A stretch of 43,169 bases of DNA, taken from positions 1 through 43,169 of IMG/VR virus record IMGVR_UViG_3300050821_023943, one strand, 5' to 3'. Position numbers and translations under genes: made by a program. Source of the DNA: a virus. The notes beneath the pieces were generated by a model. It had not been told where the DNA came from, made no database searches, and worked only from the letters and a program-made list of their open reading frames with translations. Positions 6,013 to 41,673 of the stretch are shown piece after piece; the first letter of the stretch is position 1, and each line of letters begins with the position of its first letter.

Positions 6013-7524
6013 CTACGAATATGAAGCGAAGCCATAGCGCGGCTGTGGAGAAGTAACACCGTACTTGTAGGGCTTTGAGCCCGTGGTCACCGTGATCGTC
6101 TCGGCAATCTCCAATGCCTCATCAGCGACTTCAAGGTTTTCGGTCACGGTAGAGTCATCAACTGCCGTCTGGGACGCCTCCTGCTGCAGGATGCTCTGCA
6201 TGAGGTCCGTGAAGGTGACTACATCCGAGCCGATTGCCTCGATCTGGTATTCAAGCATCCCGTTGGCTCCAGGGGCATATCCAACCGCCGTAATGTCCTT
6301 GATGATAAGCGTATCGACAAGGCCAAAGGCAGGAAGGTCGAAGGTGATCGCCTGGCCGATCTTGCATCCGGGGACGAGAGTGTTGAATTTCACGTCCCAG
6401 ACCGGATGGCCAAACTGGAGGATCTGCGCGGTGGCGCGCGCTTGGGCTTCAGGGACGCTCAAAATCTTCGTATCCGTGATGACGCCCTGATATTCCCCGT
6501 AGGTCGCGATGCTCGACGCGTCAGAAGCATGGGCAACAATCGGAACTTTTGCGCTGCCGAACACTTTTACCGTCTGCCCGGTCGTAGGGGCTCCAGCAGT
6601 GAATTGAATCCACCGCTGCGCGTCGTTGTACATCACTTGAAAATCGGAAGGGTCATCTTGGTTGGCGATGCCGATGGTCTGGGGTACCCCGTTCAACGTG
6701 ACGGTCATCGGTGTCGTATCAAAAGCACTGGAATTCGCCTCGTAGGCATAGGACACGCTGAAGAACTGGGTAACGCCGTCCGTCATAAAAGTATCGATCG
6801 TGGTCAATGCAGTGAAGGTCTTGGTGTACGTTCCACCGATGACGTATACCGAGTTCTGCATGTTCGTCAGGTTCTGGTCCACGTCGAGCGAATTCCATTC
6901 GATGTCGGAGCCGGTATTTCCTCCGGTCGTATTCACGACGATCGGAGCAACACCTCCTTCGCCGACGCCGTCATCAACATCGCCCAAAAAGAAATGGATA
7001 TCCTTGTTCGCATCGATGTACCAATCCCAGCCGATGAGCGTCGCAAGGGATTGGAGCGCCTTTGATGGCTGCTGGTAATTGAACTTGATCGAAGGGATGA
7101 GGAAATTCGCGAACTGAACGTGGTTCGTCGTGAAACCCTTTGCGCCGAGGGGATCGGCCAATGCGACAATGGCCAGCACGATGTCGTGCGGGTCCATGTT
7201 GGCATAGTTCTGGCGGATGAGATTACCGTTGAAGAGATATCCCCAGTCGGTGCCCGTGATTTGCCAAGTGAGCATCAGGCCTTCGATCGTCGCTTCGGTT
7301 TCTGTCACGGTGCCAGCCCAGATGAGGCCGGTCGAATCGTAGAGATTGATCGTTTGACCGACCGTGGGAACAGTGACACCAGAAAGATTCGCGGCGTTCT
7401 GGCTGACCGTAAAGGTGCACGTTCCCACGTCCTTAGTGAGCTGTGACAGAGCAGAAATGCTTTTCCAGTTAACAGAGGAGCTGATGTCAGTGCCGTTGCA
7501 CTTTATAACGATTGGGTTCGGCAT
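6013..7524 (-). CDS. Tail hub / tail-associated (gp27-like) protein
   Basis: A 503-residue protein located immediately after the tape measure gene, where siphoviruses encode the distal tail or hub proteins. The N-terminus reads like a beta-barrel hub domain (VKCNGTDISSSVNW is similar to GTDVT-type hub starts; WAGTVTETE; GTDWGYLFN), and a phage-tail-like domain follows around residues 100-400. It probably forms the ring that closes the tail tube and bears the fibre. Its ATG overlaps the tape measure stop as TGATG. An upstream TTG would add one residue and is not preferred. No hydrolase motif is seen. Confidence 0.7.
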   Translation of the reverse strand: MPNPIVIKCNGTDISSSVNWKSISALSQLTKDVGTCTFTVSQNAANLSGVTVPTVGQTINLYDSTGLIWAGTVTETEATIEGLMLTWQITGTDWGYLFNGNLIRQNYANMDPHDIVLAIVALADPLGAKGFTTNHVQFANFLIPSIKFNYQQPSKALQSLATLIGWDWYIDANKDIHFFLGDVDDGVGEGGVAPIVVNTTGGNTGSDIEWNSLDVDQNLTNMQNSVYVIGGTYTKTFTALTTIDTFMTDGVTQFFSVSYAYEANSSAFDTTPMTVTLNGVPQTIGIANQDDPSDFQVMYNDAQRWIQFTAGAPTTGQTVKVFGSAKVPIVAHASDASSIATYGEYQGVITDTKILSVPEAQARATAQILQFGHPVWDVKFNTLVPGCKIGQAITFDLPAFGLVDTLIIKDITAVGYAPGANGMLEYQIEAIGSDVVTFTDLMQSILQQEASQTAVDDSTVTENLEVADEALEIAETITVTTGSKPYKYGVTSPQPRYGFASYS

Positions 7525-31488: not shown

Positions 31489-31720
31489 TCATTTCCCGTA
31501 GGATCTCAGATAGTTTCTTCAAATCTTCGAAGTCGCAAATCACTTCGATTCTTGCTTTGAAAGCGTGAAGCCGTGATGCCCGTGCCGTGACGACGATGCT
31601 GTCACCTTGCTTTACTTCCGCCGTTGGTTCATCTGTGGTGAACATTGGCTCATGCAAGGCCTTCTCCAGCTCCTTCTGGCTCACAGCAGGGCCGAATTTT
31701 ATGGTGTAGCGTTCGATCAT
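31475..31720 (-). CDS. Hypothetical beta-alpha protein
   Basis: An 81-residue protein of mixed strands and helix (RYTIKFGPAVSQKELEKAL; GDSIVVTARASRLHAFKARIEVI). The start overlaps the receiver-like gene's stop as ATGA, and the stop is buried in a terminator hairpin. Last gene of the leftward operon. No family recognised. Confidence 0.6.
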   Translation of the reverse strand: MIERYTIKFGPAVSQKELEKALHEPMFTTDEPTAEVKQGDSIVVTARASRLHAFKARIEVICDFEDLKKLSEILREMKEGA

Positions 31721-32106
31721 ACTTCGGTTTCAAGTCGGTTGGCTGGCACGCTTTCTTTCCGCTCGATTTCAAAACCTTGAAGGTGGCCAGCGATCCGTAG
31801 CGCTCCAGCGGGGTTCGAGGTGTGGATTATAATCTTCGGCGTCTTGCTTCCGTTAAAACAGAATGCCGAGTGGTCGTGCGGCTGATATTTGGCGGCGATG
31901 AACTGCGCGACTGGAGTGAAGGTTTCTTCGCAGGGATACGGCCGTGAGATGCCTCCCATCACGACTTGATGGCTGATGTCGTGGTCCAAGCTGATCACGT
32001 CGAAATCGAACGTGGCAATCGCGCTGATGGCCGCCGTGATTGTCCGTGCAACCATCCAGCTCTCGTCAGGCGCGTTGCGGATGTCATCGACAAATAGTTT
32101 CTTCAT
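31717..32106 (-). CDS. Cyclic-phosphate receiver-like (cREC) protein
   Basis: A 129-residue protein starting MKKLFVDDIRNAPDESW, then FDVISLDHDIS and IIIHTSNPAGALRIAGHL. This is the layout of the receiver-like cREC family (KKLFLDDxRxP … D…LDHDL … HSxNPxGxxNI), which lacks the usual phospho-acceptor role and has been proposed to process cyclic phosphates in RNA or NAD-related conflict systems. The exact substrate is unknown. A TATAGC hexamer lies six bases before the ATG, overlapping a divergent promoter, so the message could be leaderless. Confidence 0.7.
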   Translation of the reverse strand: MKKLFVDDIRNAPDESWMVARTITAAISAIATFDFDVISLDHDISHQVVMGGISRPYPCEETFTPVAQFIAAKYQPHDHSAFCFNGSKTPKIIIHTSNPAGALRIAGHLQGFEIERKESVPANRLETEV

Positions 32107-32112
32107 GTTGTT

Positions 32113-32120
32113 GCTATAAT
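32113..32120. promoter_or_regulatory. Overlapping divergent -10 boxes
   Basis: On the plus strand TATAAT (32115-32120) is 21 bases before the ATG of the gene at 32142, which also has GGAGG. On the minus strand the same bases read TATAGC, ending six bases before the ATG at 32106. No good -35 was found for either. Confidence 0.45.
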
Positions 32121-32141
32121 GCTTTGCCATTGGAGGCGCCC

Positions 32142-32402
32142 ATGCGCATTGACCTGTATACGAAAACAATTCTCACCGTCATCGCTTTGTTGCTAGCGGC
32201 GATGGTTTTGAAGCCCATGTTTAATCCAAAGCCCGTCATGGCACAGGGAAGTTTCAGCGGCATTCAGTTCAATGCCGTAGGCGGTGAACTTTACTCGGTC
32301 GATACCCGAACGGGTGATGTATGGGGTTGGAATATCGAGAACGGCCAAATTATTCGACACGCAAAGCTCATCAAGATTGGTCAGCCACTTTCGACCCAGT
32401 AG
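32142..32402 (+). CDS. Small secreted or membrane-anchored protein
   Basis: An 86-residue protein with a signal-like N-terminus (MRIDLYTKTILTVIALLLAA … VMAQG), then a small beta domain with SGIQFNAVGGELYSVDTRTGDVWGW and KLIKIGQPL. I recall a family with the same start (MRIDLYTK-) and the DTRTG-VW and GQPL phrases in Acidobacteriota genomes; its role is unknown. It has its own TATAAT and a GGAGG Shine-Dalgarno on the strand opposite to the neighbouring operon, so it is a likely moron. Confidence 0.7.
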   Translation: MRIDLYTKTILTVIALLLAAMVLKPMFNPKPVMAQGSFSGIQFNAVGGELYSVDTRTGDVWGWNIENGQIIRHAKLIKIGQPLSTQ

Positions 32403-34236: not shown

Positions 34237-34677
34237 TCAATGCGTTCGTAGATGGAGCGGCCTGAGCATGAAGTACGTCTGCCCATAGACCTGCCATCCG
34301 CGTCGTGCGGCGTCTCTGAGCGTTCCCAACTCTTCTACACTCCACGGTTCAACTGCTCGGGAGAGGCGTTCCAGAAAGGCAGCGGCGCCTCGTCCCCATT
34401 TTCTATCAAGCCCGATGCTGTATTCATAGCTCATGGAGCCAGCGTACCGGTTGCAGCGTGCGCACTGGCCATTGATATTCCATGGGTGGAACCTTGTTAT
34501 GCCGTGTGTTGAAACCCTGAAGTGTCCAGCTTCAAGATCGTATAAGCCCTTACAGGAAATGCATAGCAATCCGAAGTCCCGCTCTCGGATCATCTTGTTA
34601 ACAGCCGTCTGCGTGGCGGCGATAGCTTTCTGATGCTCTGTCTTTCCAACACGGGAACGAAGCCAGGATTTTTTCAT
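34237..34677 (-). CDS. ninG: NinG/Rap-like recombination protein
   Basis: The 146-residue protein contains CISCKGLYDLEAGHF, NINGQCARCNRYAGS and EYSIGLDRKWG, the zinc-binding core of lambda NinG (Rap), a structure-specific endonuclease that acts on recombination intermediates. The Cys-x2-Cys pairs and the His are all present. The basic N-terminus (KKSWLRSRVGKTEHQKA) is also typical. The stop overlaps nothing; the start overlaps the upstream stop as ATGA. Confidence 0.8.
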   Translation of the reverse strand: MKKSWLRSRVGKTEHQKAIAATQTAVNKMIRERDFGLLCISCKGLYDLEAGHFRVSTHGITRFHPWNINGQCARCNRYAGSMSYEYSIGLDRKWGRGAAAFLERLSRAVEPWSVEELGTLRDAARRGWQVYGQTYFMLRPLHLRTH

Positions 34678-34877
34678 TGGACGTTTCGCTCCTCCGGCTC
34701 GACAAGCCGATAGAACTTCCAGATCACCTGCTCGCGCAAATGTCGTGACGCCGTTCCCCCACCTCGTGCCCACACGATAGTCCAGCCCCGCTGGCCGTTA
34801 TAGGCGTAAATCTCGCCGCGTCGGCCGGTACGGGTGTCTTCATAGATTTGGCCCTTACGGATCGGTGTTTTCTTCAT
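34674..34877 (-). CDS. Hypothetical small beta-barrel-like protein
   Basis: A 67-residue basic protein with RKGQIYEDTRTGRRGEIYA and GWTIVWARGGG, suggesting a small SH3- or KOW-like barrel. Linked by ATGA overlaps to both neighbours. No family assigned. Confidence 0.6.
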   Translation of the reverse strand: MKKTPIRKGQIYEDTRTGRRGEIYAYNGQRGWTIVWARGGGTASRHLREQVIWKFYRLVEPEERNVQ

Positions 34878-38669: not shown

Positions 38670-38981
38670 TTAGTGTGCAAGCAAGTACTCCTCGCTTTCT
38701 GTTTCTGGCCTTTCGTACTCGACAACCGCATAACCGTGGCTCGGATGGTCGCAATGCCCAGTGCCAAACTTATCCAGTTTGCAATCATGGTCGTCCATGT
38801 GTGCCACTTGCTCGCCAAACTCTATCTGCCGAGCGAGGTTAGGGATGTCTGACTTACGGATTTGGATTTCCCCGCCACACCGCTTGCACTTATCCCACAT
38901 GATAATTTCCGCCCAGTGGTCGGTGTTCCGGCACACGCGCGGGATTTTGGGATACGGTACTTTGTCGATTTTTGTATTCAT
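38670..38981 (-). CDS. Cys/His-rich zinc protein
   Basis: A 103-residue protein with CKRCGGEIQIRKSD and DDHDCKLDKFGTGHCDHPSHG, enough Cys and His for one or two zinc sites. It is preceded by a 90-base structured RNA element and a G-poor 13-base leader. Function unknown. Confidence 0.6.
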   Translation of the reverse strand: MNTKIDKVPYPKIPRVCRNTDHWAEIIMWDKCKRCGGEIQIRKSDIPNLARQIEFGEQVAHMDDHDCKLDKFGTGHCDHPSHGYAVVEYERPETESEEYLLAH

Positions 38982-38994
38982 TGGTTTGTATTTG

Positions 38995-39084
38995 ATTCGG
39001 GAGAGTGCGAAGGAACCTGTGTGGTAAACTTCGCGCGGTATCGGCTAGCTCGTCCTAAAGAGGAACGATACGCCTCTCCCGAAT
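38995..39084 (-). ncRNA. Structured three-helix RNA element in a 5' leader
   Basis: A perfect 11-bp stem (ATTCGGGAGAG at 38995-39005 with CTCTCCCGAAT at 39074-39084) closes two inner hairpins: GCGAAG/CTTCGC (39007-39012 with 39029-39034; inner ACC/GGT) and GTATCG/CGATAC (39038-39043 with 39066-39071; inner TCCT-AAAG-AGGA). On the minus strand it ends 13 bases before the ATG at 38981, so it would lie in that gene's leader. It is not a tRNA (no T-arm) and matches no riboswitch I know. The strand is inferred from context. Confidence 0.55.
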
Positions 39085-39145
39085 ACACGGGTTAATTGAT
39101 TTGGGGTTGCGCTACTGACGCGAGCGCGAAATGGCGCACAAGTTA

Positions 39146-40769: not shown

Positions 40770-41660
40770 ATGTCCTACGACTTCGGCGCGATCAAACTGA
40801 TTCCCATCGCTTCGGTGCTTCGTCCCTACGGGGTGGAAGTGCGGAAGCGGAGCGACAAGGAGTTGGTATGTAGGTGTCCACTTCCATCCCACAAGGAGGC
40901 GGAACACAAAAACGACAACCTGACCTTCTGCATCGGAGTGGAGAAGAACAAATGGTACTGCCAGTCCGATTCCTGCCGCCAGATTGGAAACCATCCGAAG
41001 GGCGGGGATGTCATCGACTTGATCTGTCGGCTCGATCATTGCGATACGAAACAAGCGGCCAAGAAACTGAGTGAGCTGTTTGCCATCAAAGCGAATGGTA
41101 CTCACCAACCTTCAAAGCCATCTTCCGAGCCCGTTGCGGAAGTCCGCAATCCACCACTCACCTTCACCCTGAAGAACCTCGACCCTGACCATCCGTTTTT
41201 GAAAGAGAAAGGAATCAGCATCGAAACGGCGATGGAGTTTGGTGTGGGGTATCACTCCGGCAAAGGTTCGATGGCCGGACGCATCGTCTTCCCCTTGCAT
41301 GAGGATGGATCTCTGATCGGCCATGCCGGGCGTTCGGTGGACGGCTCCGAGCCACGCTGGAAGCTCCCACAAGGGCTTCATAGAACCTTCCTCTACGGCT
41401 TAGAGCGGTGCGACGCTACGAAGCCCCTCATCCTCTGTGAGTCGTGCTGGGCGGTATTGCACTTCCACCAGCATGGCGTCCAAGCGGTGGCGCTCATCGG
41501 AACCACGCTCACGGACGCGCAAGAAAAGTTGTTGACGCCATTCTCCACCATCACGGTGGCGATGGACAACGACGAACCTGGCCGGACGGCCGCCCGCAAG
41601 ATCGCGGAACGGTTGAAAGCCACTGGCAAGAATGTAAGGACGGCGTTCCTACGAGAGTAG
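40770..41660 (+). CDS. CHC2-Toprim DNA primase (short form)
   Basis: This 296-residue protein has an N-terminal CHC2 zinc finger (Cys34-x-Cys36, His41, Cys64 and Cys69, with GGDVIDLICRLDHCD after it) and a C-terminal Toprim domain with Glu near 219 (LILCESCWAVLHF) and Asp-x-Asp near 267 (VAMDNDEPGRTAA). It makes RNA primers. It lacks the middle polymerase domain length of DnaG and has no helicase part. I recall similar short primases in Acidobacteriota mobile elements. Palindrome copy 6 lies inside the gene (41134-41149). The stop codon is inside a strong terminator. Confidence 0.85.
   Translation: MSYDFGAIKLIPIASVLRPYGVEVRKRSDKELVCRCPLPSHKEAEHKNDNLTFCIGVEKNKWYCQSDSCRQIGNHPKGGDVIDLICRLDHCDTKQAAKKLSELFAIKANGTHQPSKPSSEPVAEVRNPPLTFTLKNLDPDHPFLKEKGISIETAMEFGVGYHSGKGSMAGRIVFPLHEDGSLIGHAGRSVDGSEPRWKLPQGLHRTFLYGLERCDATKPLILCESCWAVLHFHQHGVQAVALIGTTLTDAQEKLLTPFSTITVAMDNDEPGRTAARKIAERLKATGKNVRTAFLRE
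41134..41149. repeat. Palindrome copy 6 (TTGCGG-AAGT-CCGCAA)
   Basis: Exact arms, in the linker between the zinc-finger and Toprim parts of the primase gene. Confidence 0.75.
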
Positions 41661-41673
41661 GAGCGCCTTTTTT
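41642..41673 (+). terminator. Strong intrinsic terminator after primase
   Basis: An 11-bp stem (41642-41652 with 41657-41667, one G-U pair), GAGA tetraloop, then TTTTTT. The primase stop codon (41658-41660) is in the 3' arm. Confidence 0.9.

Follow-up and report, generated by a model that had tools for sequence, protein, structure and literature searches.

The question raised by this locus is whether the 164-nt gap (38982-39145) in front of the gene starting with the ATG at 38981 carries a structured RNA in its own right and, if so, what that RNA might do for the phage. The window, by which the whole 43-kb virus record of 43,169 nt is meant, had been read in the original prediction as containing, on the minus strand from 39084 to 38995, a three-way junction in which a perfect 11-bp closing stem (P1) encloses two hairpins of 6 bp each with inner paired tips (P2 and P3), ending 13 nt before the ATG. 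The gap and the distance to the ATG are correct, and the closing stem is present as an inverted repeat that is perfect over 11 nt and is one of two perfect non-palindromic pairs of this length lying within 120 nt in the whole window. The minus strand of 38995-39084 folds at -37.8 kcal/mol compared with -22.4 kcal/mol (sd 3.3) for shuffled versions (z -4.63), with 0 of 200 shuffles being equally stable. The overall shape of the two hairpins holds as well, and so do the 6 bp of P3, to which folding adds a 3-bp inner stem; P2, in contrast to what had been described, is made of 8 bp with a bulge and a 3-bp inner stem. For the opposite strand the predicted fold is of about the same quality (z -4.91), so that a single sequence cannot settle the strand and comparison is needed. 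The further statement that no known riboswitch core, ribozyme core, or tRNA arm is present agrees with the scans, as Rfam 15 gave no match in the window and none at E values up to 5 around the element, no tRNA was found there by ARAGORN or Rfam, and Rfam matches in four other member loci were chance ones located away from the element.

Table 1. Features of the element and of its surroundings in the window (positions are those of the 43,169-nt stretch).
Feature	Position	Strand	Basis or remark
Flank strand A (AACCCGUGU)	39085..39093	-	Partner is loop segment B; 8/9 Watson-Crick in the window
A:B mismatch, C.A	39089 with 39018	-	Single
P1 5' arm (AUUCGGGAGAG)	39074..39084	-	Perfect 11-bp pairing with 38995-39005; compensated in relatives, among them L092 and L008/L009/L029
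P2 hairpin region	39035..39073	-	Folding; sequence and length vary; missing in some relatives
P3 5' arm (GCGAAG)	39029..39034	-	Folding and covariation
Loop segment B (ACACAGGUU), partner of A	39014..39022	-	Compensatory changes with A
P3 3' arm (CUUCGC)	39007..39012	-	Folding and covariation
Unpaired A between P3 and P1	39006	-	Invariant in 14/14 aligned three-way-junction members
P1 3' arm (CUCUCCCGAAU)	38995..39005	-	Inverted repeat and covariation
Possible 15-codon leader ORF, GTG start, TAA overlapping the start of A	39092..39139	-	Weak; stop position matches relatives
Upstream hairpin GCGCU-CGCGUCAGU-AGCGC	39109..39127	-	Sequence inspection; in the window, L003 and L028; in L058 with compensated stem GCCUC/GAGGC
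Downstream gene, 103 aa, Cys/His-rich putative zinc protein	38670..38981	-	Without family match

Homologues of the element were found in 22 related phages, including a probable prophage of an Acidobacterium MAG, which together with the window gives 23 members. BLASTN of the element against isolate phages, also with two relatives as queries, gave no match, and the downstream zinc protein used as bait among viral contigs retrieved no relative. The window terminase as query led to 42 related loci, inside which short-word BLASTN located the element in L003, L028, L032, and L040, and a pattern scan of viral contigs added L045, L046, L048, L049, L050, L053, L054, L057, and L058. A second pattern allowing for a shorter P2 contributed L088 as the sole new member, all other matches from the longer- and shorter-P2 patterns being attributed to chance, as were the seven matches of a relaxed P1 pattern, which yielded no new true member. 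A covariance model without the pseudoknot scores members at 37-87 bits, at one place per record and on the coding strand, and also gives weaker mirror matches at the same places on the opposite strand. Scanning of bacterial genomes with the terminase revealed loci in Acidobacteria MAGs at 80-81% identity, one of which (L092) carries the element, as detected by the covariance model in this protein-found locus; the locus is flanked on both sides by cellular-looking genes on a contig of 232 kb and is therefore probably a prophage. Among 399 host-class genomes searched with the model, the element is present only in the genome with the L092 prophage, and hence it belongs to the phage, while a pattern scan of the GTDB genomes gave no match. 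The host of many of the member phages is probably an acidobacterium. Judged from these comparisons, the element is a member of a previously uncatalogued RNA family of soil phages in which the shape is kept rather than the sequence.

Compensation in the stems of homologues had been set beforehand as the test of the predicted fold, and it came out strongly, with changes on both sides of P1, of P3, and of the additional helix A:B described below. In alignment A2, which comprises 14 members with P2 cut out, 11 pairs of the full structure are altered on both sides and 95.5% of the cells are paired; the covariation score is 0.245 as compared with 0.091 after shuffling, 0 of 500 shuffles reach the observed values, and sliding the structure by one column reduces the pairing to below half. 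The A:B helix on its own scores 0.347 in the same alignment, as compared with 0.110 for shuffled data. The sequence of P1 itself is altered by compensation in L092 (where a base pair is swapped, GGG/CCC becoming GGC/GCC) and in L008, L009, L029, and L039. As to the strand, the irregular pairs in P1 and P3 include eight G.U cells and no A.C cell, which favors an RNA on the strand of the downstream gene, i.e. the mRNA strand, although it has to be noted that 4 of the 12 mismatches in A:B (C.A and A.C) would be wobble pairs if the opposite strand were transcribed. The comparison of homologues thus bears out the original assignment of a structured RNA to the downstream-gene strand, and it is nearly certain that the element is a real, conserved structured RNA.

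By the same comparisons, the main feature of the element is a pairing that was overlooked in the original prediction, namely, that of nine bases directly 5' of P1 (A) with a segment of the P3 loop (B). The limits of 38995-39084 given earlier are consequently incomplete, since the A strand falls outside them. Complementarity of A and B is common to 23/23 members, and there is never a gap between A and P1. When each of the 12 distinct versions of A:B is counted once, 95 of 108 pairs are Watson-Crick, as against a mean of 59.6 and a maximum of 80 in 20,000 trials with shuffled partners, a calculation in which kinship is ignored. Every one of the 12 versions contains exactly one internal mismatch (G.G, C.A, or A.C) at position 4 or 5, and in L046 the helix also ends in a second mismatch. 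This rule spans unrelated A:B sequences, and the constant mismatch is read as a sign of selection for an imperfect helix. The family supplies a natural case of pairing whose very imperfection seems to be what is conserved. Energy calculations on RNA cut at the end of B rank A:B as the most stable fold in 10 of the 13 members covered, as is expected of any such pseudoknot when the prefix ending at B is folded. In the window, A:B then lies within 0.3 kcal/mol of the best fold, and in L008 and L009 it is less stable than another fold. For the complete RNA, a fold without A:B is preferred by 12-20 kcal/mol.

The three-way junction, which had given the element its name, stands for the window and for the aligned three-way-junction members; it is not the core of the family since P2 is dispensable, being absent in L008, L009, L013, L017, L029, and L110 and ranging in other relatives from 30 to 53 nt without being alignable. 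L008, L009, and L039 share the upstream membrane-peptide gene (see below), yet they have no match to the covariance model; directly after that gene they carry a different sequence with the same plan, i.e. a stem whose loop pairs with a flank strand. A further pattern scan found this plan in L013, L017, and L110, the last being a phage reached by a route other than the terminase. When the related loci were scanned with a sequence-blind descriptor, nine plus-strand places matched, every one of them in the early-region position. Among these is L029, a new minimal version in which A and B are set apart by a perfect, linker-free stem of 14 bp. The tight descriptor also matched 21 times on the other strand, against 4-5 times per shuffled run, so that a lone descriptor match is not evidence and only the combination of location and descriptor counts; a loose descriptor produced many chance matches. 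The divergent versions occupy the same place in the early region as the other members, and, as far as the predicted pairing goes, the highly divergent ones retain only the stem and the flank-loop pairing. This conservation of architecture alone extends over a group of soil phages and L110. As a separate observation, P2 in the L049 element (6184-6283, minus strand) resembles a truncated tRNA with acceptor strands and a T arm (GCGGUUCGAAUCCGC), ending in CCA, which suggests that P2 tolerates insertion; ARAGORN called no tRNA in this stretch, and a tRNA connection was dropped, as there was no call for the element or for the P2 of L049. In L049, L050, L053, L057, and L088, the 5' arm of P1 is repeated immediately 3' of P1 (e.g. 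UCCCGAAUAUCGGGA), where a competing hairpin could form.

The minus strand of the window carries the packaging, portal, and tail genes, and the plus strand a primase-like gene at 40770, which places the element close to where a long leftward unit begins; a strong terminator-like hairpin with a T-run is seen at 41642-41667 (+), exactly where the primase-like gene ends. In 16 of the 23 members, A is preceded at a distance of 1-8 nt by the end of an ATG ORF of at least 30 codons, compared with a background of 3.0% of positions within 3 kb. This ORF usually encodes a single-span membrane peptide about 50 residues long, and this family (e.g. L092, 1682-1840) has the conserved pattern MN.ETELI..EI..F.RP...LLLWLASIGAF and no match in NCBIfam. 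The corresponding ORF of L110, Cys-rich and unrelated to the membrane peptide, likewise has a stop that overlaps A. An overlapping TAA is found in the window, L003, L028, and L058 as well, the ORF there being a short or startless remnant that is not convincing, and the upstream hairpin of Table 1 looks like what is left of the C-terminal codons (LASIG) of the membrane-peptide gene; L029 and L046 have no stop beside A. On the other side, the next gene starts 8-36 nt past P1 and differs from phage to phage; outside the window it codes for a PD-(D/E)XK nuclease or for a protein of Rad52-like or HNH-like type, or is one of various small ORFs, so that the tie to the zinc-protein gene proposed for the window is not general. 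The genes of the window phage mostly lack a Shine-Dalgarno motif, and its absence at the element is thus uninformative with respect to sequestration of such a motif.

The element, lying between two early genes, probably controls the early mRNA in cis. The reading that we tentatively prefer, at somewhat less than an even chance, is that of a cis-acting intercistronic RNA switch or pseudoknot in an early polycistronic mRNA, which is sensitive to ribosomes ending upstream. Against it speak the members with no convincing ORF at the stop next to A (the window, L003, L028, and L058) or with no stop there (L029 and L046), and the four A:B mismatches that would be wobble pairs on the opposite strand. 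A ribosome at a stop codon covers the stop and about nine bases beyond it, i.e. the length of A. In the proposed model, a ribosome terminating on the small upstream ORF would cover the stop together with A, and P1 would start at its leading edge, so that ribosome occupancy at this stop would decide whether A:B can form. If A is free, A:B would form once B has been transcribed and would then either stay as a pseudoknot or be displaced by closure of P1, with the mismatch keeping the helix weak enough for displacement. Where P2 or some other bend is present, A:B may exist alongside P1 in a pseudoknot. For L029, whose stem is straight over 14 bp, this is hardly conceivable, and a switch, partial opening of the stem, or intermolecular pairing is suggested there. 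The output would be expression of the downstream replication and recombination genes by way of translation coupling, mRNA stability, or elongation. A stronger form of this model, which we consider doubtful, is that the element represents a new class of phage RNA switch of ribosome-footprint size with an obligatory mismatch and conservation of architecture only, through which translation of the membrane peptide gates the replication module. The strict rules observed (a gapless flank strand of nine positions, a fixed internal mismatch, and a stop at the edge) make the mechanism testable by a plain reporter, and it would show control of early genes by phages in hosts such as Acidobacteria, about which, to our knowledge, very little is known.

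Structured RNAs such as the HK022 put RNA and EAR likewise lie early in a long operon, irrespective of the gene that follows, and a put/EAR-like processive antitermination RNA, in which the folded transcript acts on RNA polymerase so that terminators in the leftward unit are read through, is the first alternative to be weighed. Each phage has one copy of the element near the head of a unit with all annotated structural and packaging genes on the same strand, whatever the next gene may be, and this single position near an operon head resembles that of phage nut and put sites and of EAR. We regard this alternative as unlikely. Conservation of the pairing without the sequence would be odd for an RNA that docks on the polymerase, no clear terminator to be overcome is seen near the element, and there is a single element despite two divergent units; the element has no match in Rfam, a comparison that covers only the families in Rfam.

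The intercistronic site, the architecture kept without sequence, the long continuous strand from A into P1, and the optional insertions at P2 would also suit an element of mRNA processing or stability, that is, a roadblock or an RNase III-type site between early cistrons setting the 5' or 3' ends of mRNA fragments. This is less likely again, as it leaves both the constant mismatch in A:B and the tight spacing to the upstream stop unexplained. The linker-free stem of L029, which makes an intramolecular pseudoknot with the full stem look sterically impossible, could point to A and B pairing between two RNA molecules as a dimer, or the element might be released as a trans-acting RNA; we deem both improbable, given that the covariation of A and B within each genome fits any mode of pairing, that a switch or an opened stem accounts for L029 just as well, and that no promoter or terminator of its own is seen for a trans-acting RNA.

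The aptamer suggested originally fits poorly. A compact fold located shortly ahead of a start codon could serve as a riboswitch or as an operator bound by a protein of the phage or of its host, but in contrast to a riboswitch with its ligand core, the family (A2 and the divergent members) keeps pairing and almost no unpaired base, the downstream genes are unrelated, and P1 itself shifts in sequence by compensation, all of which renders this explanation quite improbable. A structured element of single-stranded DNA with a role in replication, for which the position ahead of replication and recombination genes might speak, has still less in its favor, considering that the irregularities of the stems are G.U on the mRNA strand only and that the link to the upstream stop codon is tight. 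A chance fold or an alignment artefact, conceivable insofar as some members were found by a pattern demanding the P1 sequence, has a negligible probability, being refuted by the covariation statistics and by the recovery of four relatives by BLAST and one by the covariance model in protein-found loci and of others by location or by the sequence-blind descriptor. Retroviral stop-codon readthrough pseudoknots likewise have a structure starting about 8-9 nt after the stop codon, but stop readthrough and frameshifting are excluded for the element because no frame runs consistently through it into the next gene, the open lengths after A varying from 12 nt upward with no frame in common.

Among known systems, the closest in outline is the flaviviral xrRNA (exoribonuclease-resistant RNA), a three-way junction in which a hairpin loop pairs with a flank to give a pseudoknot (PMC5760640). 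The two differ in that the L3 loop of the xrRNA pairs with a downstream strand, whereas the loop of the phage element, according to covariation, pairs with a strand 5' of P1; in that the phage element has a dispensable P2 and junction and a constant mismatch in its helix; and in that the xrRNA resides in the 3' UTR of RNA viruses and the phage element in an intercistronic mRNA. The pseudoknot-based STAXI motif (RF01728), which is similar in its proximity to genes that encode SSB and further DNA-handling proteins, occurs as two or three repeats with frequent UUCG tetraloops and was once considered as possibly single-stranded DNA (PMC2864571; the same work notes EAR, the epsC motif). The phage element, in contrast, is present in a single copy per record with its own P1/P3 and flank-loop design, and the Rfam scans gave no STAXI match. 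A literature search for described phage motifs of the same plan found none, one described elsewhere being possible. The element stands as a well-supported structured RNA family of uncultured phages that is absent from the catalogues searched. Elsewhere on the minus strand of the window, the phage encodes a NinG/Rap junction endonuclease (34237-34773; Pfam E 1.9e-18) and a protein with a cyclic-phosphate-processing receiver-like domain (cREC_REC, 31717-32169; Pfam E 8e-16).
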